This document shows, one piece after another, positions 1 to 27,631 of a stretch of DNA of 36,440 bases. The notes under the pieces were generated by a model. It ran no database searches and was not told the origin of the DNA. It saw only the letters and a program-made list of their open reading frames with translations. How positions within the stretch are numbered: the stretch's first letter is position 1; every line of letters begins with the position of its first letter. The stretch comes from Desulfovibrionaceae bacterium (lineage in GTDB: Bacteria; Desulfobacterota; Desulfovibrionia; Desulfovibrionales; Desulfovibrionaceae): NCBI GenBank assembly GCA_015233395.1, contig JADFXV010000027.1:1-36440 (forward strand), read 5' to 3'. The position numbers were made by a program, and so were the translations under genes.

Positions 1-1318
1 CGACCGCCCAGTCGTAGCGGAACTTGCACAACTCCGGGAACACGGTCTGGACAATCCGCCATACCAGCAGCCAGACGCCGATGTCCGCCCGGATCGCGCT
101 TACGGCCAAAAGGTTGCGGGTCCAGAGGTAGTGCTTGGCCGGATCGAGCTTGCCGTAAAACGGCAGGTGCCAGACGCCGGCGCCGCCGGCCTCGACCAGC
201 GAGACCCCCATCGCCTTAAGGCGCAGGCCGTATTCGATGTCGTCGCCGAGCAGGAAAAAGGGCAAAAGCAGCCCGGCCCGGCGGGCGTCGGCCACGGACA
301 GGGCGAAAAACCAGAAGCCGCCGTAGTCGATTGCGCTCGGCAGGCACAATCCGTCCAAGGCCCGGGAGCCGGACGCGTCCAGGCGATGACGCAAAGGCAG
401 GACCCGCCAGGGATGGGGACCGGGATGATCGGCGCCGGCAAAGGCCAGGGCGCCGGATTCGTAAATCTGGGTGGGCAGTTCCCAATCGAGCATGGCGCCG
501 CACACGGCCACCGGACGCTTGGCGCGGCCAAGCAGCACAATCGCGCGCAGGACGGCCTCGGTGTCGATCGCGACGTCGTCGTCCATGAGCAGCGCGTGGG
601 TCGCCCCGGGCCGGGAAAAAACCTCCAGCAGGCCCCGGGAAAAGCCCCCGGAACCGCCGGTGTTGGGGCTCGGAATCAGCGTCACCTTGGGCGAGGCGAA
701 ATCGGCGGGCGCAAGCGTGCGGCCGTTGTCCACGACCACCACTTCGACCCCGAAGCGCGCAAGATCCGGGTCGCCGGTCAATTTTCCGGCAAGCTCGATC
801 ACCGAGCGCTCGCGGCCGAAAGTGCATACGACCACGGTCAGCGCCACCGGCCGGGCGGCGGCGTTGTCGAAAAATTCCCCGCCGCAAAACGAACCGCGCT
901 CGCTCAGGCAGCGCAAGCGGACATACACCCGGCCGAGTTGTTCGTCCGGGCGAGGCGCGGGCACGTCCAGCACGGCCGGTTGCATGCCCTCGAAAACGGC
1001 CCGGGCGAGCTCGCGCGGCTCACAACCGAAGCCGCGCCGCCAGAGCGCGACCTCGAAGCGGCCGGTGAGCCGCAGTCTGACGCGCACGTCGCCCAGCTCG
1101 CAAAGCGCGCGCAGGCGGCCCTCCGGCAGGGCGTTGAAATAAGAGTCGCCGTCGATCTCCCCGCCCTCGGCGCAGGTGAAGCCGCCCGCGTCCCGGTCCA
1201 GGCGGACGTCGCCGCTGAGCCGGGCGTACAGGGGAAGATGGCGCGCCTGTTCGGGAAAGCGAAACCTGGCCAGGAGGTTTTCGCCGATCGCGCCGCCGCG
1301 CGTATCAGTCCTGTCCAT
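1..1318 (-). CDS. GlfT2-like galactofuranosyltransferase (GT2, GT-A fold), 3' end outside window
   Basis: The reading frame runs from an ATG at 1318 off the left edge without a stop (439 residues visible). Residues 1 to about 155 look like a beta-rich N-terminal domain. A GT-A domain follows, with TVVVCTFGRE near 161-170, a metal-binding DDD at 246-248 (LLMDDDV), an acceptor-side DDIEY at 359-363 and a WH pair at 383-384. The order and spacing match mycobacterial GlfT2 (DDD, then DD about 115 residues later, then a catalytic-region His 24 further on). GlfT2-type enzymes transfer galactofuranose from UDP-Galf onto a growing glycan, so a role in a surface polysaccharide is inferred. The start overlaps the stop of the upstream GT2 gene by 14 bp, indicating translational coupling as the last visible gene of the glycan operon. 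Another GT2 donor specificity is possible. Confidence 0.85.
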   Translation of the reverse strand, partial: MDRTDTRGGAIGENLLARFRFPEQARHLPLYARLSGDVRLDRDAGGFTCAEGGEIDGDSYFNALPEGRLRALCELGDVRVRLRLTGRFEVALWRRGFGCEPRELARAVFEGMQPAVLDVPAPRPDEQLGRVYVRLRCLSERGSFCGGEFFDNAAARPVALTVVVCTFGRERSVIELAGKLTGDPDLARFGVEVVVVDNGRTLAPADFASPKVTLIPSPNTGGSGGFSRGLLEVFSRPGATHALLMDDDVAIDTEAVLRAIVLLGRAKRPVAVCGAMLDWELPTQIYESGALAFAGADHPGPHPWRVLPLRHRLDASGSRALDGLCLPSAIDYGGFWFFALSVADARRAGLLLPFFLLGDDIEYGLRLKAMGVSLVEAGGAGVWHLPFYGKLDPAKHYLWTRNLLAVSAIRADIGVWLLVWRIVQTVFPELCKFRYDWAV

Positions 1319-2153
1319 CGAGCTTATGCCTTCTGGCGATACGCACCAGTTCGGAGGATTCGCGGTAGAGCCTGGCCATGTTGTCCGGAGTATGGTTGTC
1401 CACGGCGCGGTCGCGGTCGTGGACGCGCAGATTGACCAGCACCTTGGGGCAATGCGCGAACTTGGCCCCGTTCATGGCGAAGCGCAGGTACATCTCATGG
1501 TCCTGCACGGTCAGGTCCTCGCGGAAATAGCCGTATCGCTCGTGCAGGCAGCGCTTGTAGAGCTTGCCCACGCCGCACAGGTACCAGTGGCAGAAGGCGG
1601 CCTCGAAGGTGTAGTCCGGGAGCCTGAAACGCCGCAGGATGCGGCCGGCGTCGTCGACGATGTGCTGGTCGGCGTAGGCGAAATCCGCGCCGGTCCGCGC
1701 GAGCAGCCCGGCCAGCTCGGAGACCATGGCGGGCAACAGCAGGTCGTCGGAAGCGATAAAGGTGCACAGTTCTCCGGAAGCGGCGCGAAAGCCGGTGTTC
1801 AGCGCGGCGCTCAGCCCCCGGTTCTTCTCGTGGCGCAGGATCGTAAGCGAGCGGCCCTCGGCGGGGTAGCGAGGATGATAGATCCGCTGGACCTCTCCGG
1901 TCGTTTCGTCCAGGTTCGCGGCATAGGAAGTCTTTTCGCCGGCCACGGCCGCGAGATAGTCGTCGATGACCTGCGCCGTGTTGTCCGTCGAACCGTCGTC
2001 GACCACGATGATCTCCAGGTCCGCATAGTCCTGAAACCAGACCGAATCCAGGGTGATCGGCAGATACGCCCCCTGGTTGTAGGCAGGGACGACGATCGAG
2101 ACGAGCATTTCCTTCCCCCCTCGCCCGCCCGTCGGGCGGTTTTTCGCGCTCAT
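1305..2153 (-). CDS. Family 2 glycosyltransferase
   Basis: This 282-residue protein has a GT-A nucleotide-sugar fold: VSIVVPAYNQ near 18-27, VVDDGSTD near 50-57, the NRGLSAALN segment near 111-119 and the metal-site SDD at 135-137 (FIASDDLLLP). The C-terminal part carries DHEMYLR and an RVHD segment typical of polysaccharide GT2 enzymes. There is no membrane segment, so it should act at the cytoplasmic face. The chosen ATG at 2153 overlaps the stop of the upstream dehydratase (ATGA) and has GGGAGG about 10 nt before it. A second ATG at 2108, right before the conserved LVSIVVPAYN strand and preceded by GGAAGG, is equally plausible and would give 267 residues. Donor and acceptor cannot be read from the sequence. 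Confidence 0.9.
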   Translation of the reverse strand: MSAKNRPTGGRGGKEMLVSIVVPAYNQGAYLPITLDSVWFQDYADLEIIVVDDGSTDNTAQVIDDYLAAVAGEKTSYAANLDETTGEVQRIYHPRYPAEGRSLTILRHEKNRGLSAALNTGFRAASGELCTFIASDDLLLPAMVSELAGLLARTGADFAYADQHIVDDAGRILRRFRLPDYTFEAAFCHWYLCGVGKLYKRCLHERYGYFREDLTVQDHEMYLRFAMNGAKFAHCPKVLVNLRVHDRDRAVDNHTPDNMARLYRESSELVRIARRHKLDGQD

Positions 2154-3209: not shown

Positions 3210-4874
3210 TCACGCCAGATACCTGTTTTCCGCGAGATAATCGATCACCCGCCGCGCCGTTTCGATGACGTCGCAAGCGGTCGTGTCCAGGACGATTTCC
3301 GCCGCTTGCGGCGGCTCGTAGGGGGCGTCGATGCCGGTCACGCCGGTCATTTTTCCGGCCCGGGCCTTGGCGTAGATGCCCTTGCGGTCGCGCCGCTCGC
3401 AGACCGCAAGCGGCGTGGACAGGTACACCTCGATAAATCCCCCGTAGGCCTCGACCTGCTCCCGGGCCGCCCGGCGCGCGTCCCGGTAGGGGGCGATGGG
3501 CGCGCAAATGGCGATGCCACGGTTTTTCGTGATTTCCCCGGCGACGAACCCTATCCGCTTGATGTTGAGAAAGCGGTGTTCCTGGGAGAAGGTCAGTTCG
3601 CTGGACAGATTTTTGCGCACGATGTCGCCGTCGAGCAAGCTCACCGGGCGGTCGCCGAGTTCCATGAATTTCACGTATAAAAGCTTGGCCAGGGTGGATT
3701 TTCCCGCGCCGGAAAGCCCGGTGATGAACACGGTGAAGCCCTGCCCGCTCCGGGGAGGATAGGCGCGGCGCAGCTCGGCCTCGATCTCCGGCAGGAGACA
3801 GCGCGCGGGAACCGGCTCGTCGAAATCCAGGCGCCTTTTCAAGGCGGCGGCGCCGAGGAACGTTTCCTCCGGATAGGCCTCCTGTTCCGGGGACACGGGC
3901 GCGATGCCGATTTCGCGCGCCGGTCCGGCCATGGCCGCAAGCGTTTCGCCCGGGGCGTAGAATGGGATCTGGCCGCTTTCCCCGAACGGATCGAGGCGGC
4001 GCTCGTCGATCAGGGTGTGCGTGCAGCCGTAATTTGCATGCACGATCGCTTCCAGCAGCGCCTGCCTGGGGCCGGCCGCGCGCACGCGCAGGGGCGCGAG
4101 GACGAGTGCGGCCAAGTCGCCCGGAAACCGCTCGATGAAACGTTTGCAACACCTGACCCGGGTGAAATGTTCCGGATTGCCGAGCAGGCTCTGGCTGACC
4201 GGCGAAAACAGCAAAATTTTGGCGCCCGCCCGCCCGGCCGCGTCCAGAAGCATCCGCTCGTCGGCGCATTGCGGCGCCCGGGAGCAGGTGAACCCGAGCG
4301 CCTTGCTCCAACCCTTGCGGGCGAAAAGACCGCGCGCCGCCCCGGGGGCCAGGCGCAACTCCCGGTAGTCGAAATGAAAGGGGGCATGCAGGCCTTCGAC
4401 CCGGCCGCCGAGATAAAATTCCCCGGTCGCGGCCAGGAATTTGTCCACGCCCGGATGCGCCCCCGGGTCGTCGGTTCCGTAGACGAGCCGGGCCTCGCGC
4501 CTCGGGTCGGGCCGCCAGATGTCCTCCACGTTCAGGACCGCCAGCATGAACCCTTCCTGGTCGCGCAGCGCAAGCAGCGCGCCGGGCTCAAGCCGGGCGC
4601 GGACGCTCGCGTCCACGTCCAGACAGATGGGCAGGGGCCAGGGACGCCCCGAGCCGAGCCGCTGCAATTCAAGGACGCTTTCGTAGTCGGCGCGCGCGTG
4701 GTAGCCGGCAAGAGGCGCGAAAGCGCCGTTCAGGAGAAGCTCCAGGTCGCACAGCTGGTCCGGGCTTAAGGTGAGCGACGCAAGATCGACCGCTAACGCC
4801 GTAAGCTCCTTGGCGCGCTCGGGGGTCGCCATGAGGCCGTGCGGGGAATCGTTGTCTGCAACCTGGTTGTCCAT
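3210..4874 (-). CDS. Fusion of degenerate ATP-sulfurylase-like domain with intact APS kinase
   Basis: This 554-residue protein has an N-terminal ATP-sulfurylase-type half (about 20-375) and a C-terminal APS kinase (about 379-554). The kinase keeps its Walker A loop (GLSGAGKST, 386-394), DGDIVRKNL, GFVAGEITKNRG and the APIAPYRDAR segment, so phosphorylation of adenylyl sulfate to PAPS is expected. The sulfurylase half keeps the fold landmarks AGPRQALLEAI and NYGCTH. However, where active enzymes have QTRN and HxxH it reads CSRAPQCADE (197-206), and the GRDHAG loop is DERRLD. Both catalytic histidines are gone. As first gene of a glycan operon it may supply PAPS for sulfation, or act on another nucleotide-linked donor, as shown for the APS-kinase-like Campylobacter Cj1415. 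The ATG at 4874 has AAGGG upstream; an upstream TTG (4892) and a downstream ATG (4832) are alternatives. Confidence 0.9.
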   Translation of the reverse strand: MDNQVADNDSPHGLMATPERAKELTALAVDLASLTLSPDQLCDLELLLNGAFAPLAGYHARADYESVLELQRLGSGRPWPLPICLDVDASVRARLEPGALLALRDQEGFMLAVLNVEDIWRPDPRREARLVYGTDDPGAHPGVDKFLAATGEFYLGGRVEGLHAPFHFDYRELRLAPGAARGLFARKGWSKALGFTCSRAPQCADERMLLDAAGRAGAKILLFSPVSQSLLGNPEHFTRVRCCKRFIERFPGDLAALVLAPLRVRAAGPRQALLEAIVHANYGCTHTLIDERRLDPFGESGQIPFYAPGETLAAMAGPAREIGIAPVSPEQEAYPEETFLGAAALKRRLDFDEPVPARCLLPEIEAELRRAYPPRSGQGFTVFITGLSGAGKSTLAKLLYVKFMELGDRPVSLLDGDIVRKNLSSELTFSQEHRFLNIKRIGFVAGEITKNRGIAICAPIAPYRDARRAAREQVEAYGGFIEVYLSTPLAVCERRDRKGIYAKARAGKMTGVTGIDAPYEPPQAAEIVLDTTACDVIETARRVIDYLAENRYLA

Positions 4875-4935
4875 GCCGCGATGCCCTTGCAAAATCCGTT
4901 CTCGATTTCCCCGGACGCGGCCCGGCCCGCCGCCG

Positions 4936-9386: not shown

Positions 9387-11444
9387 CTAACACACGTCGC
9401 AGGGTCCGGTGTACGCCAAACGGTCCGCGTATTCGGCCTGTTTGCCTTTGTTCCAGCGCGACACCGGGCGGTAGTAGCCGACGATGCGGGTATAGACCTC
9501 GGCCGGTTCGCCGCAGTCGGGACAGTCGTGGTGTTCGCCCCGGATGTAGCCGTGGCTTTGGCAGATGGAAAAGGTCGGGGTGATGGACAGGTAGGGGATC
9601 TTGGTCATGCTCAGGGCTTTGAGGATGAAGCTTTTGAGCGCCTTGGTGTCGGTCACCGCCTCGCCGAGGAAGGTGTGGAAGACGGTGCCGCCGGTGTAGA
9701 GCGGCTGGAGTTTGTTCTGGTGTTCCAGGGCCATGATGACGTCGTCGGAATGGCCGACCGGCAGGTTGGTGGAGTTGGTGTAATAGGGCGTGCCGTTGCC
9801 CGAGGCCTTGATGTCGGCGTACAGGGCGCGGTCGATCTTGGCCAGGCGGTAGCTGGTGCCTTCGGCCGGGGTGGCTTCGAGGTTGTAGAGGTTGCCGGTT
9901 TCTTCCTGGAAGCGGGCGGTGATGTCCCGCAGAAGATGCAGCATCCGGGTCATCAGCCTCACTCCGGCCTCGGTTTCGATGCCCTTGCCCAGGAGATTTA
10001 AGCAGGCTTCGTGGCCGCCGACCAGGCCGATGGTCGAAAAATGGCCGGCGAAGCCGTTTTTGAGATAGCGTTTGGTCCAGGGGAACATGCCCCGGTCGAG
10101 GTTGCCGCCGATCATCTTGCGTTTGAATTCCAAGGCCTGCCTGGCCAGGTGGGCGTATTCCGAGACCAGGTCGAGAAAGTCCTCCTCGCCTTGGGCGAGA
10201 TAGGCGAGCTTGGGCAGGTTGAGCGTCACCACGCCGATCGAGCCGGTCAGGTCGCCCGCGCCGAAGAGCCCGCCGGTCTTGTTGCGCAGTTCGCGCAGGT
10301 CCATCTGCAGACGGCAGCACATCGAGCGCACGTCCTCGGGATTTAAGTCCGAATTGATGAAATTCTGGAAATAGGGCGCGCCGTACTTGGAAGTCAGTTG
10401 CAGGAGCAGTTCGCCGATTTCGCTGTCCCAGGGGAAGTCCTTGGTGACGTTGTAGGTCGGAATCGGGAAGGAGAAGATGCGGCCGTGGTAGTCGCCGTTC
10501 TGCATGACTTCGAGAAAGGCCTTGTTGAACATGTCCATTTCCGGGACGAAGTCGCCGTACGTCGCGTCGATCAGCTTGCCGCCGATGATCGCCGCCTCGG
10601 CGGCGATATGTTTCGGCGGGGAAAGGTCGAAGCTCAAGTTGGTGAACGGGCTTTGCCCGCCCCAGCGCGAGGTGGTGTTCAGGTTGAAGACGAATTTCTG
10701 CACCGCCTGGCGGACCTGGTCGTAGGTTAGTCCGTCGTGGCGGATAAACGGGGCCAGGTAGGTGTCCACGTTGTTGAAGGCCTGGGCGCCGGCCCATTCG
10801 TTTTGCAGCGTGCCCAGGAAATTGACCATCTGTCCCAGCGCGGAATCGAAATGCCTGGCCGGTCCGGCGCTGGAGCGGCCTTCCAGGTTGAATCCCTCAA
10901 GCAGCAAGTCGCGCAGCGACCAGCCGGCGCAGTAGCCCGCCAGGCCAAACGACAGGTCGTGCAGGTGGAAATAGCCGTGCTCGTGGGCCGCGCGCACTTC
11001 CTGGGGATATTTTTCCAGCGCGTACCGGGCCTGGACCGTGCCCGAGAGGTGCAGCATCAGTCCCTGGAAGGAATGGCTCATGTTGGCGTTTTCCGACACC
11101 CGCCAATCGGATTTGTCCAGGTAGTCGTCGATGGTGTTTTTGATGTCCAGGTACGCGGCCTTCTGCTCGCGCAGTTCGCGGCGCTTTTCCCGGTAGATGA
11201 TGTAGCGCTTGGCCACGTTAAACAGGCGCGACTCCATAAGCGCCGCCTCGACCTGGTCCTGGACGTACTCCTGTTCCGGAGCCTCGCAGCCGGCTAATTT
11301 GGCCTCAACCTTGCCGGCCAGCCGCTTGGCCAGGATCGGGTCGCTCACTCCGTTGGCCTTGAGCGCCTTCAGGATCGCCTGGGCGATCCGTTCTTGCGAC
11401 CAGGTCTCCTCGCGTCCGTCGCGTTTGCGTATCCGCAGTGGCAT
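9387..11444 (-). CDS. nrdD: Anaerobic (class III) ribonucleoside-triphosphate reductase
   Basis: This 685-residue protein starts with an ATP-cone regulatory domain (about 1-92, IRKRDGREETW). It continues with the glycyl-radical barrel: HLHDLSFGLAGYCAG, TSRWGGQSPFTNLSFDL, MCCRLQMDLRELRNKTGG and NLPKLAYLAQGE. The C-terminal zinc site is CPDCG plus a terminal CxxC (CDVC), and the radical-bearing glycine is G656 in RIVGYYRP, 30 residues from the end. It reduces NTPs to dNTPs without oxygen, using a radical installed by NrdG. ATG 11444 has GAGGAAGG five bases upstream. It overlaps the nrdG frame by 140 bp. Confidence 0.97.
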   Translation of the reverse strand: MPLRIRKRDGREETWSQERIAQAILKALKANGVSDPILAKRLAGKVEAKLAGCEAPEQEYVQDQVEAALMESRLFNVAKRYIIYREKRRELREQKAAYLDIKNTIDDYLDKSDWRVSENANMSHSFQGLMLHLSGTVQARYALEKYPQEVRAAHEHGYFHLHDLSFGLAGYCAGWSLRDLLLEGFNLEGRSSAGPARHFDSALGQMVNFLGTLQNEWAGAQAFNNVDTYLAPFIRHDGLTYDQVRQAVQKFVFNLNTTSRWGGQSPFTNLSFDLSPPKHIAAEAAIIGGKLIDATYGDFVPEMDMFNKAFLEVMQNGDYHGRIFSFPIPTYNVTKDFPWDSEIGELLLQLTSKYGAPYFQNFINSDLNPEDVRSMCCRLQMDLRELRNKTGGLFGAGDLTGSIGVVTLNLPKLAYLAQGEEDFLDLVSEYAHLARQALEFKRKMIGGNLDRGMFPWTKRYLKNGFAGHFSTIGLVGGHEACLNLLGKGIETEAGVRLMTRMLHLLRDITARFQEETGNLYNLEATPAEGTSYRLAKIDRALYADIKASGNGTPYYTNSTNLPVGHSDDVIMALEHQNKLQPLYTGGTVFHTFLGEAVTDTKALKSFILKALSMTKIPYLSITPTFSICQSHGYIRGEHHDCPDCGEPAEVYTRIVGYYRPVSRWNKGKQAEYADRLAYTGPCDVC

Positions 11445-12123
11445 GGGAACCTTCCTCGCTGGTTTGGACGTAGGGTTGCACGGTGAGAACGTGACGATCG
11501 GGCAGCAGGGCGCGGATCGCGTCCAGATCCCGGGGACCGACCTGCGGCGTGGCAGTGGTGCGAAAGAAAAACCGCCCCGGATGGGCGACGGCCAGAGCAA
11601 ACACCCGCGTCAGGCAGGCCTGCGCCGCGACCGGGTCCAGGCGCTCGCCCGTGGCTGCGGAATATTTGGCGAAGGGCGCCTTGACGTCCACGGACACGGC
11701 GTCGACGAGCCCGGCCGCGAGCAGTTCGGCGACCACCTCCGGGCGGCTGCCGTTGGTGTCGAGTTTGACCGGCAGGCCGTAGCCCCGGAGAAACGCCAGA
11801 AAATCGGCCAGATCCGGAACCAGGGTCGGCTCGCCGCCCGAGACCACGATCCCGTCGAGCCATTTGGACCTAACCGAGAGGAGTTTGCGCACGTCCGGGG
11901 CGAAAAGCTCCGGATGGCGCTCGGGCGTCCAGGCGATCCCGGCGTTGTGGCAATGCGGGCAGCGCAGGTTGCAGCCGCCGAAAAAGAGCACGGCGCAGGT
12001 CTTTCCCGGCCAGTCGCACAGGCTCAGGCGCTCGACGCCCCGCAAGGCCGACCAAGCGGAAAAGGCGGAAGCGGAAGGACCGGCGGGGACGCAAGGAGCG
12101 GCGGAAACGAAAGGGGCTGCCAT
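11305..12123 (-). CDS. nrdG: Anaerobic ribonucleotide reductase-activating radical SAM protein
   Basis: The cluster motif C51-x3-C55-x2-C58 lies in GGCNLRCPHCHN. It is followed by VSGGEPTL, LDTNGSRPE and VDVKAPF, the pattern of the NrdG2 / pyruvate-formate-lyase-activase group. It cleaves S-adenosylmethionine to place the glycyl radical on NrdD, its overlapping neighbour. With the ATG at 12123 it has 272 residues. ATGs at 12171 and 12216 are possible but add low-complexity sequence, and no start has a strong Shine-Dalgarno. The homologous part ends near VQPYVQ; the last 46 or so residues, rich in Arg, Asp and Gln, are the nrdD start region read in another frame. Confidence 0.88.
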   Translation of the reverse strand: MAAPFVSAAPCVPAGPSASAFSAWSALRGVERLSLCDWPGKTCAVLFFGGCNLRCPHCHNAGIAWTPERHPELFAPDVRKLLSVRSKWLDGIVVSGGEPTLVPDLADFLAFLRGYGLPVKLDTNGSRPEVVAELLAAGLVDAVSVDVKAPFAKYSAATGERLDPVAAQACLTRVFALAVAHPGRFFFRTTATPQVGPRDLDAIRALLPDRHVLTVQPYVQTSEEGSHATADTQTRRTRGDLVARTDRPGDPEGAQGQRSERPDPGQAAGRQG

Positions 12124-12370
12124 GAAAAGGGGGAACCTCGTTTGCAGGGCGCGACCCGCCGCCCTGGCCATTGAAATCCACTCTACTGATCGGCTTTTTA
12201 CTCCTCGCGCCGGCATTTGTTAAGACCCGGGCGCGTTAAATTTCGTTTACTATTTCAATGATTTGCTCCTTACATGCCGGTATGATTCAGCTATTTATTT
12301 CCCTTTTCAGGGACATGGGAAGGGCGATTCTCTTTCTCACCCCCCGGAAAGTTTTTTGGAGAAGGGGGTC

Positions 12371-24006: not shown

Positions 24007-25596
24007 CTAGAACGTGTACTTGAAGCCGAAGGCCAGCTTCCAGGCGTCGCCGTAGTTGTTCACGTTCCGGGCGCCCCAAACGCTGCCGCGCAGCCCGGAG
24101 ACTTCAGCCCAACCGAGTTCGAGGATAGCGGAGAGGTTTTCGTAGATCATGTACTTGGTGTCCAAGTTCAGGCCGAACAGCCACTCGTCCGTGGTCAGGT
24201 CCTTGCCCATGACAAAGTACTCGCCGCCCAGAACGCCGCCGGCCATCGCGTTGACGGTGCGCACGTAGTTGGGGCTGTTGGTGCCGTTAGCCAGAGCCGC
24301 GGTCAGGGTGTGGCTCAGGTCTTTCATGAAGGTGATGTCCTTCAGGCTGAAAGCCAAGCCCCAGGAACCCAGCGGGTTGGCCAGCAGGGTCGAACGGGTG
24401 AAGGAGGAACCGCCGGTCTGGTACAGGAACGAAGCGCCCGGGGACCAGTACTGACGGACGACGGGCATGCGCTGGGAACCCTGGGAGAAGCTCGTCTCAC
24501 CAGTGCTCCACCAACCCATCAACTGCGGCTTCATGAAGTCGAGGCCGGCGTATTCCAGGCCGGCGTCGAGGAACCAACCGCTGCGCTGGAAGCGGGCGGC
24601 GTCGCTCTGGGCGCCGGCGCCGTAAATCACGTCGGCATAGATGTTGACCGGATCAAGAGCGGTGATGTTCAGCGGCAGGCCAGCCCAGTAGTAAGTGTTC
24701 TGGCTGTTCTTCCACATGCTGTTCTGGCCGCTCAGGGCGAAAGCCGCGACGGACTGCGCGCTCAGCAGGTTCGGAGCAAGGGCGCCGTCGTACGGGCCGT
24801 AGTTGCCGGCGGCGGTGGAGGTGCCGCCGATGTTGGCGAAGCCTTCAGTGTAGTTCGCCATGCGGCCGGCGAAAGCCACCGTGCCCCAGGGAATGGCCTG
24901 GAAGCCGTCAACCGTGATCGGGAACGCCAGGAAGAAGGCGTCCAGGGAGTCGGGGATGTAGGTGGTCGCGTTGCCGCCAAGACCGCCGCCGCCCGGATAG
25001 AAGTCGGCGCCGCCGGAGAGCAGGCGGGTGTAGCCGGCTTTGATGGCGAAGGTGTCTTTCACGACGGGAACGTCAACAACCAAGGCCGCGGCCGCGGTGT
25101 TGCCGCCCTGCGTGTCGAGCACGATGCCGCCGTTGAAGATCTTGGACTGCGGCAGAGCCAGCGGCATCCAACCGGCGGTCACCTGGACCTCGGTGGTGGG
25201 CAGCAGGAACTGCACGTAAGCCGCGTTGACGTCGATGGCGACCGGGGGGTTGTCCACGGCCAGGGTGTTACCCCAGGAAGCGTTGTTCACGCGGATGCCC
25301 AAGCGGAACTTCAGGGCCTCGGAGGCGATGAAGTCCGTCTGCAGGCGGAAGCGCTCCCAAATGGTGAAGGTTTCTTCGGAAGCGGTGGCCGGAGCGACGC
25401 CAGCGACGGCGGCGTTCGGAGCGCCGGTGAAGTAGTTCATGCCCCGGGCGTTCCAGGGAGTGAAGTTGAAGTTGGTGCGCAAATTCGCATGGATGCGGGC
25501 GTCGCCCATCATTTTGACCTCGGTGTCGGCGTTCGCGGCAACGGCCAGGCCGAGCACGAACACAAACGCCAAGGCGATCAGGGTAAAGCGTTTCAT
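24007..25596 (-). CDS. Outer-membrane porin, paralogue 1
   Basis: The 529-residue protein has a signal peptide (LIALAFVFVLGLAVAANA, cleavage near 23) and a long series of amphipathic beta strands. It ends in phenylalanine (FGFKYTF), the outer-membrane beta-barrel signal. It resembles the abundant homotrimeric porin group of Desulfovibrio. Alignment with the next gene shows near-identical blocks (GDARIHAN, FTPWNARGMNY, ALPQSKIF, LPLNITALDPVN, GLRGSVWG.RNVNN), so the two are tandem duplicates. The most variable segments, around 195-300 and 390-410, are probably surface loops. AGGAGG-like GGAGGAAAGTGA precedes the ATG. It should admit small hydrophilic solutes; specificity is unknown. Confidence 0.9.
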   Translation of the reverse strand: MKRFTLIALAFVFVLGLAVAANADTEVKMMGDARIHANLRTNFNFTPWNARGMNYFTGAPNAAVAGVAPATASEETFTIWERFRLQTDFIASEALKFRLGIRVNNASWGNTLAVDNPPVAIDVNAAYVQFLLPTTEVQVTAGWMPLALPQSKIFNGGIVLDTQGGNTAAAALVVDVPVVKDTFAIKAGYTRLLSGGADFYPGGGGLGGNATTYIPDSLDAFFLAFPITVDGFQAIPWGTVAFAGRMANYTEGFANIGGTSTAAGNYGPYDGALAPNLLSAQSVAAFALSGQNSMWKNSQNTYYWAGLPLNITALDPVNIYADVIYGAGAQSDAARFQRSGWFLDAGLEYAGLDFMKPQLMGWWSTGETSFSQGSQRMPVVRQYWSPGASFLYQTGGSSFTRSTLLANPLGSWGLAFSLKDITFMKDLSHTLTAALANGTNSPNYVRTVNAMAGGVLGGEYFVMGKDLTTDEWLFGLNLDTKYMIYENLSAILELGWAEVSGLRGSVWGARNVNNYGDAWKLAFGFKYTF

Positions 25597-26008: not shown

Positions 26009-27580
26009 CTAGAAGGTGTAGCGCAGGCCGAAGGCGACTTTCCAGGCGTCTCCGGCGTTGTTCACGTTGCGCGGTCCCCAGACGCTGCCGCGCAGGCCGG
26101 ACACGTCGGCCCAGCCCAGTTCGAGGATGGCGTCGAGGTTGTCGTAGATCTTGTACATATGGTCGAAGTTGACGCCGACCAGCCATTCGTCGGTGGTCAG
26201 GTCCTTGCCCATGGTGGCGTAAATGCCGCCCAGGCCCGAAGAGGCGACGGCGCGCGCCCAGGACGGGGAGTTGGTGCCGTTGACCACGGCGATGGTCAGG
26301 CGGTGGGTGAGGTCCTTGACGAACGAGATGTCCTTGAAGCTCAGCGCCAGGCCCCAGGAACCGGCCGGGTTGCACAACAGGGTGTTGCGCGTGAAGGCGG
26401 TGGCGTTTCCGGAGTACAGGAAGGAGCCGCCGACGTTCCAGAAGGAACGCGCGAACGGGATGCGCTCGGAGCCGTCGTTCAAAGAGCCGTTTTCACCCGT
26501 GCTCCACCAGCCCATCAACTGGGGCTTCATGAACGACAGGCCGGTGTATTCCACGCCCGCGTCGATGAACCAGCCGCTGCGCTTGGACTGGGAGCGGTCG
26601 TCCATGGCGCCGGCGCCGTACAGCACGTCGGCGTAGAAGTTGACCGGGTCCAGGGCGGTGATGTTCAGAGGCAGGCCGAACCAGTAGTAGCTGTTGGACT
26701 GGTTGGCCCACATGGAATTGAAACCGGAGGTGGCGGCCAGCTTCGCGCTGGCGGCGGAAACCATGTTCATGCTCACGCTGGAGTCGACTTCGCCCCAGGC
26801 CGCGGTCGGTCCGAGGGCGGTGCCGCCGAGCAGGCCGGACCAGTTCGCCATGCGTCCCGCGTTTGCATAGGAGGCCCAGGGGATGGCCTGGAAGCCGTCG
26901 ATGGTGACGGGCAGGGCCAGAAAGAAGAGGTCCACGGCGTCCGCCACCGGGGTGGTGGCGTTTGTTCCCACGCCGCCGGCGTAGAAGTCGGCCGCGCCCG
27001 AAAGCAGGCGGGTGTAGCCGGCCTTGATGGCGAAGGTGTCCGTGACCACCGGGATGTCGACCACGGCGGCGGCGGCGGAGGTGTTGCCCCACTGGGTGTC
27101 GAGGATGAGCGAGCCGCCGAAGATCTTGGACTGCGGCAGGGCCAGCGGCATGTACCCGGCGCTGACCTGGGCCTGGGTGTTCGGAATGAAAAACTTCAGA
27201 TAGGCCTGATTGACGTCGATGGCCACCGGTGGGTTGTCCACGGCCAGCGAAGCGCCCCAGGCGACGTTGTTGACCCGGATGCCGAGGCGAAACATGAGGG
27301 TTTCGTTGGCGATGAAATCGGTCTTCAGGCGAAAACGCTCCCAGATGGTGAAATTCTCTTCCGAAGCCGTGCCCGGAGAGATGCCCGCGATGGCGGCCTG
27401 GGGAGCGCCGGTGTAATAGTTCATCCCGCGCGCGTTCCAGGGCGTGAAGTTTTCGTGCGTGACGATGTTGGCGTGAATGCGCGCGTCGCCGGACATGACC
27501 ACCTCGGTCTCCGCGCTTGCGGCCGCGGCGAAGCCGAGCCCGAAAACCGCCGCCAAGGCGATGCAAATCAACCGTTTCAT
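26009..27580 (-). CDS. Outer-membrane porin, paralogue 2
   Basis: The 523-residue protein has a signal peptide (LAAVFGLGFAAAASA, cleavage near 22), repeated beta strands and a terminal phenylalanine (FGLRYTF). It is colinear with the neighbouring porin over the full length; the differences cluster in probable outer loops near 195-290 and 375-395. Start ATG 27580 has a G-rich ribosome site close by; the frame extends to 27616 without support. Its own promoter region and terminator show that it is transcribed apart from porin 1, which would allow different regulation of two pore types in the outer membrane. Confidence 0.9.
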   Translation of the reverse strand: MKRLICIALAAVFGLGFAAAASAETEVVMSGDARIHANIVTHENFTPWNARGMNYYTGAPQAAIAGISPGTASEENFTIWERFRLKTDFIANETLMFRLGIRVNNVAWGASLAVDNPPVAIDVNQAYLKFFIPNTQAQVSAGYMPLALPQSKIFGGSLILDTQWGNTSAAAAVVDIPVVTDTFAIKAGYTRLLSGAADFYAGGVGTNATTPVADAVDLFFLALPVTIDGFQAIPWASYANAGRMANWSGLLGGTALGPTAAWGEVDSSVSMNMVSAASAKLAATSGFNSMWANQSNSYYWFGLPLNITALDPVNFYADVLYGAGAMDDRSQSKRSGWFIDAGVEYTGLSFMKPQLMGWWSTGENGSLNDGSERIPFARSFWNVGGSFLYSGNATAFTRNTLLCNPAGSWGLALSFKDISFVKDLTHRLTIAVVNGTNSPSWARAVASSGLGGIYATMGKDLTTDEWLVGVNFDHMYKIYDNLDAILELGWADVSGLRGSVWGPRNVNNAGDAWKVAFGLRYTF

Positions 27581-27631
27581 GAAGCCCCCCGCGTTTTGAT
27601 TGCCCAACCGATCCAAGCCGCTGCCCCGGGG

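Follow-up and report, generated by a model that had tools for sequence, protein, structure and literature searches.

Fusions that place a live APS kinase behind a sulfurylase-like domain without activity are already known from Thiobacillus denitrificans and Entamoeba histolytica. The two-domain APS kinase of T. denitrificans (TdAPSK; Tbd_0210, PDB 3CR8) was reportedly described by Gay, Segel and Fisher in 2009, and is not known to have ATP sulfurylase activity. The mitosomal E. histolytica enzyme (EhAPSK; 23VK/23VL; Hatanaka et al. 2026, PMC13213808) likewise has a dead sulfurylase-like domain before its APS kinase, and is reported to lack ATP sulfurylase activity. According to the same text, EhAPSK differs from the bacterial protein studied here in its missing substrate-binding loop, shortened linker, dimeric state and eukaryotic mitosomal setting, and fungal ATP sulfurylase (1I2D, 1M8P) shows the reverse arrangement, a live sulfurylase with a dead kinase-like domain (PMC13213808). 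The bifunctional enzyme of Aquifex aeolicus (2GKS), with the same domain order and fold, keeps both sulfurylase motifs (QRNHH and GRDHA).

Here we analyze a stretch of 36,440 nucleotides (the window) from a Desulfovibrionaceae bacterium (GCA_015233395.1, contig JADFXV010000027.1), in which the gene at 3210-4874 codes for a fusion of this kind. The original prediction described it as the reverse of the fungal enzyme, which is right as a description but not new, given the two known cases. Our search of titles and abstract openings returned no paper on this gene in sulfate reducers. To the known kind, the locus and its relatives add a broad family, recurrent loss of the sulfurylase site, evidence that selection acts on the dead domain, and Glu107 as a candidate activation contact open to testing.

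The fusion gene and its two halves

The source contig (C78 of a 3.37-Mb assembly) begins with the first base of the window. On its reverse strand the fusion gene forms a single intact reading frame with no internal stops, opening with ATG at 4874, although a TTG at 4892 is a possible alternative start. Its features are as follows:

3210..4874, reverse strand: predicted APS kinase with an N-terminal sulfurylase-like pseudoenzyme domain, 554 amino acids (reading frame and profile matches)
4389..4832, reverse strand: PUA-like domain PUA_2, residues 15-162 (Pfam PF14306)
3864..4361, reverse strand: ATP-sulfurylase-like domain, residues 172-337, catalytic residues lost (Pfam PF01747)
4260..4289, reverse strand: TCSRAPQCAD, residues 196-205, where QTRNPMHRAH is expected (alignment to 1I2D)
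3990..4007, reverse strand: DERRLD, residues 290-295, where GRDHAG is expected (alignment to 1I2D)
3285..3743, reverse strand: APS_kinase domain, residues 378-530 (Pfam PF01583)
3693..3719, reverse strand: P-loop GLSGAGKST, residues 386-394 (residue check)

The ATP-sulfurylase match scores 87 bits against a cut-off of 24.3 and the APS_kinase match 186 bits, and the order PUA_2, ATP-sulfurylase, APS_kinase in one chain is that of the TdAPSK/EhAPSK kind. An AlphaFold2 model computed from 22 sequences (pLDDT 84) superposes on 1I2D with a Z of 42.2 (rmsd 4.8 over 537 residues) and on 3CR8 with a Z of 32.8 (rmsd 4.7 over 466 residues). Fungal ATP sulfurylase gives the top sequence score among PDB chains, and the fungal and yeast ATP sulfurylases give the top structural scores against the model; nevertheless, the combination that defines the fungal allosteric enzyme, a live sulfurylase with a dead kinase, is not that of the window protein. 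A pseudogene or sequencing artefact is ruled out by the uninterrupted frame together with codon-level purifying selection, the latter observed in relatives, as the window gene has no partner close enough for such a measurement.

None of the eight catalytic residues of the Penicillium chrysogenum ATP sulfurylase (1I2D, in its own numbering) is kept, the substitutions being Q197T, R199S, N200R, H203Q, H206D, R290E, D291R and H292R. The predicted loss of the sulfurylase motifs is thereby confirmed, the CSRAPQCADE then cited being the TCSRAPQCAD stretch shifted by one residue. Such complete loss sets the protein apart even from 3CR8, which resembles it in domain order, intact kinase and defective sulfurylase motifs (QARQPMHRAQ, GGEHQP) yet keeps four of the eight (Q197, R199, H203 and H292), and from the Aquifex enzyme, of whose two motifs it retains neither. 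The comparison with Sats proposed in the original prediction gave the same picture: of the 21 stand-alone Sats compared (one from the same genome, the others from relatives, with frames taken by tblastn), 20 have all eight residues at the same columns, and hence the loss is not alignment noise. An earlier extraction that required the letters RNP or GRD, and was therefore biased toward intact Sats, had given 18 of 19. The single exception among the 21, L129 (G013:C82), carries HTSSVPHMGH and GKNHAH instead of the usual motifs. The Sat of the same genome is a separate, intact gene on contig C105 (QLRNPMHRSH, GRDHAG); this gene and the organism's kin in Desulfobacterota suggest that the host is a sulfate reducer.

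That the catalytic histidines might be supplied from elsewhere in the chain had been named as grounds for discarding the prediction. By alignment, the five histidines between residues 150 and 345 offer no replacement: H167, H236 and H286 are histidines in 1I2D as well, and the counterparts of H163 and H279 there are Asn and Arg. On the basis of this alignment, a bifunctional enzyme with displaced histidines was rejected. Replacing one histidine of the HNGH motif by alanine is enough to eliminate the ATP sulfurylase activity of human PAPSS1 (PMC11697783).

The kinase half retains the P-loop, LDGD, R420, R434, N437, R495, K498 and Y501. It shares 59% identity with 3CR8, 53% with the Entamoeba enzyme (23VK), 49% with that of Aquifex and 47% with the dead kinase of 1I2D; on the kinase tree EhAPSK sits among long branches and joins no supported group. 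At the level of sequence, the combination of an apparently live kinase with an apparently dead sulfurylase half is thus borne out. The only other APS_kinase match of the genome, on contig C44, has MDERRG where LDGDxVR is expected, and its substrate is probably not APS. This second protein (C44:12759-13247; L090:9185-9802) is 205 residues long and lies beside a same-strand gene of 455 amino acids; low-scoring APS_kinase matches like it, of about 65-80 bits, occur in many relatives.

Decay and retention of the sulfurylase-like domain in relatives

Fusions, full-length or cut by contig ends, were recovered in 45 of 149 genomes (the genome itself and 44 from its family and order), and in 34 of the 395 genomes of a phylum sample at an E-value of 1e-80. 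For residue counts we used the 89 fusions with both motif blocks, leaving out the incomplete L022 and L024, the Sat L002, the PDB references, and the duplicates L001, L026, L079 and L080. One relative carries a fusion copy (G129:C29:14686-16371) with stop codons in its kinase half, which has apparently decayed.

In all 89 the kinase P-loop K and S, the D, three R, the N, K and Y are identical, and the FS-phenylalanine is F in 82 and Y in 7. The sulfurylase residues present a different picture, with Q197 kept in 57, R199 in 35, N200 in 29, H203 in 84, H206 in 44, R290 in 16, D291 in 57 and H292 in 68. The five core residues Q, R, N, H and H survive together in only four fusions (L109, L113, L119 and L120), three of which also keep R290. 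At least one of the five core residues is thus missing from 85 of 89, and the window protein is the only fusion with none of the eight. Mean entropy is 1.89 for the sulfurylase catalytic columns versus 1.77 for the rest of the domain, as against 0.07 versus 0.76 for the kinase catalytic columns and their domain; on average, then, the former are no better conserved than their surroundings, although H203 is well kept.

A tree of 92 rows, computed with the motif columns removed and rooted by our own choice on the Aquifex row, places L109, L119 and L120 with an alphaproteobacterial row in a basal group beside the fungal and Aquifex references, with the remaining fusions branching beyond it. Each of the eight catalytic columns changes 4 to 16 times on this tree (R199 10 times, H206 and R290 8 times each). 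The window protein is a long branch next to G008 and G049, whose motifs are likewise degenerate (TDCHL/TDCHW). In this same whole-protein tree 3CR8 falls among Desulfobacterota rows as a long branch beside another long one, so its place is unsure.

Among 20 close pairs of relatives, dN/dS was 0.03-0.32 for the sulfurylase-like part (19 pairs with a value, one being saturated), 0.05-0.48 for the N-terminal part (20 pairs) and 0.01-0.12 for the kinase (19 pairs); L029 and L046, the pair with the TDCHL and TDCHW motifs, gave 0.13 for the sulfurylase-like part. These low values imply that the dead domain performs work protected by selection, at least in these relatives.

A candidate for that work comes from a residue aligned with E90 of the Entamoeba kinase, for which the offset of the Entamoeba chain was set by its P-loop (V317):

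4554..4556, reverse strand: Glu107 codon, aligned with Entamoeba APS kinase E90 (alignment)

In EhAPSK, E90 and Y133 of the dead domain make contact with the partner subunit's kinase; deletion of the domain lowers kcat about 100-fold, E90A lowers it about 50-60-fold, and the point mutants overall lower it 21- to 60-fold (PMC13213808). The same text relates that kcat/KM was largely unchanged, since KM dropped as well, and that EhAPSK without the domain aggregates, so the boost may in part be an effect on stability. It further describes the dead domain of TdAPSK as a hexamer stabilizer (PMC13213808); EhAPSK being a dimer and TdAPSK a hexamer, the role of the domain may differ between members.

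All 89 fusions have Glu at the column of Glu107, as does 3CR8. The residue there is Lys in 2GKS and Asp in 1I2D, and only one of the 21 Sats has Glu, the alignment of the Sats being less sure because their loop differs in length. Pro251 is found in 89 of 89 fusions versus 1 of 21 Sats (1I2D also has Pro), and Cys284 in 87 of 89 versus 2 of 21. Since the three basal fusions with an intact-looking catalytic site have Glu107 too, the residue is no mark of dead domains alone; rather, it suggests that the contact came before the catalytic loss.

By analogy with EhAPSK, the bacterial dead domain would activate its kinase. We tentatively extend this idea, at slightly less than even odds, to Desulfobacterota-type fusions at large: the sulfurylase-like domain would be a general activator of the kinase through the Glu107 loop, by a contact older than the decay of the site. 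Such a contact would have arisen in a domain that was still catalytic, freeing the sulfurylase site to decay repeatedly, and the window protein, with none of its eight residues left, would be the end point of that decay.

Genomic context of PAPS supply and use

Downstream of the fusion gene, and after a gap of about 60 bases, further genes run in the same direction off the contig edge:

2150..3148, reverse strand: GDP-mannose 4,6-dehydratase-like SDR, next gene downstream (Pfam PF16363, 350 bits)
1305..2153, reverse strand: family 2 glycosyltransferase, with a 4-base overlap with the dehydratase gene (Pfam PF00535)
2..1318, reverse strand: family 2 glycosyltransferase-like, cut by the contig end, with a 14-base overlap (Pfam PF13641)

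The dehydratase reaches 318 bits with the NCBIfam gmd model, under its cut-off of 415. The proposed surface-glycan operon is consistent with the Gmd-like dehydratase and the two glycosyltransferase genes, but the visible operon, up to the contig end, contains no sulfotransferase, and the arrangement is not common to the nearest relatives (L060, L072). Scans for promoters and terminators of the operon gave nothing above chance level, and the hairpin between the upstream lipoprotein gene and the fusion gene folds no better than shuffled sequences (z -0.18).

The original prediction suggested looking for a sulfotransferase beyond the left edge. The window starts where its contig does, and a search with its first 300 bases found no overlapping contig end; contig C113, which bears a sulfotransferase match, was considered as the continuation and fits in direction, but was dropped for the same lack of overlap. 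The best match of these 300 bases elsewhere covers 44 bases at 93% and falls within a gene close to where C92 begins. By eye, the opening gene of C92:1-8000 (L151:9-1838 and on) resembles the cut glycosyltransferase at 2-1318, and the nucleotide-sugar and additional glycosyltransferase genes behind it make up a second glycan cluster. Elsewhere in the window, 24007-25596 and 26009-27616 (reverse strand) are adjacent paralogues of about 530 amino acids with signal-peptide-like starts, by eye porin-like; 11305-12216 and 9387-11444 (reverse strand) look by eye like an anaerobic ribonucleotide reductase activase (NrdG-like) followed by the reductase (NrdD-like), with the NrdG-like frame extending about 140 bases beyond the likely ATG of the NrdD-like gene.

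A CysQ-cluster gene (3'(2'),5'-bisphosphate nucleotidase) directly adjoins the fusion at 14 of 49 loci, a count that excludes L077, L080, L081, L082 and L084, whose anchor was lost to a wrong gene call; one of these 14 neighbors, tested with NCBIfam, scores 274 bits against a cut-off of 228.8, and six are also above the CysQ cut-off. Sugar-nucleotide genes recur nearby, with a GalE-like gene within two genes at 7 loci, a UDP/GDP-sugar dehydrogenase next door at 5 and ManC next door at 4. Stand-alone APS kinase matches also lie directly beside CysQ in three genomes (G108:C14:334767-336088, G112:C1:2276383-2277478 and G100:C15:54651-55971), of which G108 and G112 also carry a fusion-CysQ pair.

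In the genome itself we found a CysQ-like gene on C55 (218 bits, below the 228.8 cut-off) and two sulfotransferase-family matches: a 705-residue protein on C113 (L089:9532-11649) with a long TPR array followed by a Sulfotransfer_3 domain, and a 267-residue protein on C149 (L150:2172-2975) whose sequence includes HIPKTAGTTL and matches Sulfotransfer_2 weakly (35 bits against a cut-off of 22). Across genomes, sulfotransferase matches are commoner with the fusion (31 of 45) than without it (38 of 104; Fisher p 3e-4), as is CysQ at 150 bits or more (24 of 45 versus 24 of 104; p 5e-4), both values being uncorrected for kinship and the fusion class counting also the genome itself, fragments at contig ends and a single copy with stops (G021, G106, G143, G129). 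Fourteen of the 45 fusion genomes are without a sulfotransferase match and 21 without a strong CysQ. Eleven of the 45 show no APS_kinase match at 1e-10 other than the fusion, and eight of these 11 have a sulfotransferase match, with at most 23 candidates scored per genome. Physical proximity is rare: only four of the 45 genomes (G108, G012, G053, G112) have a sulfotransferase match 6-12 kb from the fusion. A motif scan of the loci, which overlooked the G108 sulfotransferase found by other searches, was convincing in L023 only; L089 also matched, and the short or misplaced hits in L069 and L073 were taken as chance.

The PAPS source for sulfation suggested in the original prediction thus draws indirect support from the adjoining CysQ genes, from the Sat, CysQ-like and sulfotransferase matches of the same genome, and from the eight genomes in which the fusion as sole APS_kinase match is accompanied by a sulfotransferase.

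Proposed function and its implications

We posit, with a probability of about 80%, that the window protein is a kinase producing PAPS from the APS of a separate Sat, that its pseudoenzyme domain serves activation or assembly, and that the PAPS probably goes to sulfation. The C-terminal domain would phosphorylate APS to PAPS, while the N-terminal sulfurylase-like domain would make no APS, this being supplied by the separate Sat of the cell; the pseudoenzyme domain would be retained because it holds the oligomer and speeds the kinase, through a contact with the partner subunit centered on the Glu107 loop. The PAPS may go into sulfation, with a glycan or lipid as the probable acceptor, and CysQ would clear the PAP that is formed. 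A hexamer is known for 3CR8; for the window protein we infer the activity, oligomer, activation mechanism and sulfated product.

Fungal ATP sulfurylase uses its dead kinase as a PAPS sensor, and by the same logic the old ATP/sulfate pocket of the sulfurylase-like domain might bind APS, PAPS or a nucleotide sugar and tune the kinase. Purifying selection on the domain is compatible with such a ligand-sensing role, as is the near-fixation of positions in or near the old site (H203 in 84, H286 in 88 and Cys284 in 87 of 89 fusions). However, conservation of the eight catalytic columns does not on average exceed that of the remaining domain, substitutions at them recur across the tree, H203 too is lost in the window protein, and the linker narrows the pocket of the Entamoeba enzyme (PMC13213808); we hence consider this role unlikely.

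As an alternative, the original prediction offered a kinase acting on a different nucleotide donor, for example the phosphoramidate compound, taken to be CDP-linked, that Campylobacter Cj1415 handles. Beyond the glycan-gene neighbors, it could appeal to one substitution in the kinase half:

3339..3341, reverse strand: Val512 codon, giving VTG in place of the FTG of 3CR8, 2GKS and 1I2D (alignment)

Val512 replaces an aromatic residue that stacks on APS. Nevertheless, 44 of the 89 fusions have V at this column, 43 have F and 2 have Y, with at least 7 changes between F and non-F on the tree, including a return to F inside a V group (L086-L088), and we rejected VTG as the mark of a new substrate. 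The remaining checked APS-kinase residues are kept, the kinase is 59% identical to an APS kinase, and the CysQ neighbors point to a 3'-phosphoadenosine product; comparisons confined to 3CR8, the Entamoeba and Aquifex enzymes and 1I2D gave no evidence for a CDP-linked substrate, and we consider this reading highly improbable. Highly improbable, too, is a true bifunctional PAPS synthase performing the sulfurylase step with other residues: the predicted fold appears intact and the best NCBIfam model is that of the bifunctional enzyme (NF004040), but the score of 620.9 bits is below the cut-off of 669, HxxH and both sulfurylase-site arginines are absent, no residue of the eight and no replacement histidine was found by alignment, and the loss of activity on a single His-to-Ala change in the human enzyme (PMC11697783) and the reported lack of sulfurylase activity in EhAPSK (PMC13213808) speak against it.

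The reading as a PAPS-making kinase with a pseudoenzyme domain bears on annotation, in that the curated name calls the fusions bifunctional, while 85 of 89 are without at least one of the five core sulfurylase residues; predictions of which sulfate reducers produce PAPS, and of the substrate it comes from, depend on this distinction. The presence of Glu107 in all 89 turns a result from a single amoeba into one that can be tested on bacterial enzymes, and may explain why selection keeps a dead domain of about 370 residues. If the domain is indeed a general activator of its kinase, these fusions would mirror the fungal ATP sulfurylase and represent a rule rather than the curiosity of a single amoeba, and many genes annotated as bifunctional PAPS synthases would code for kinases only.
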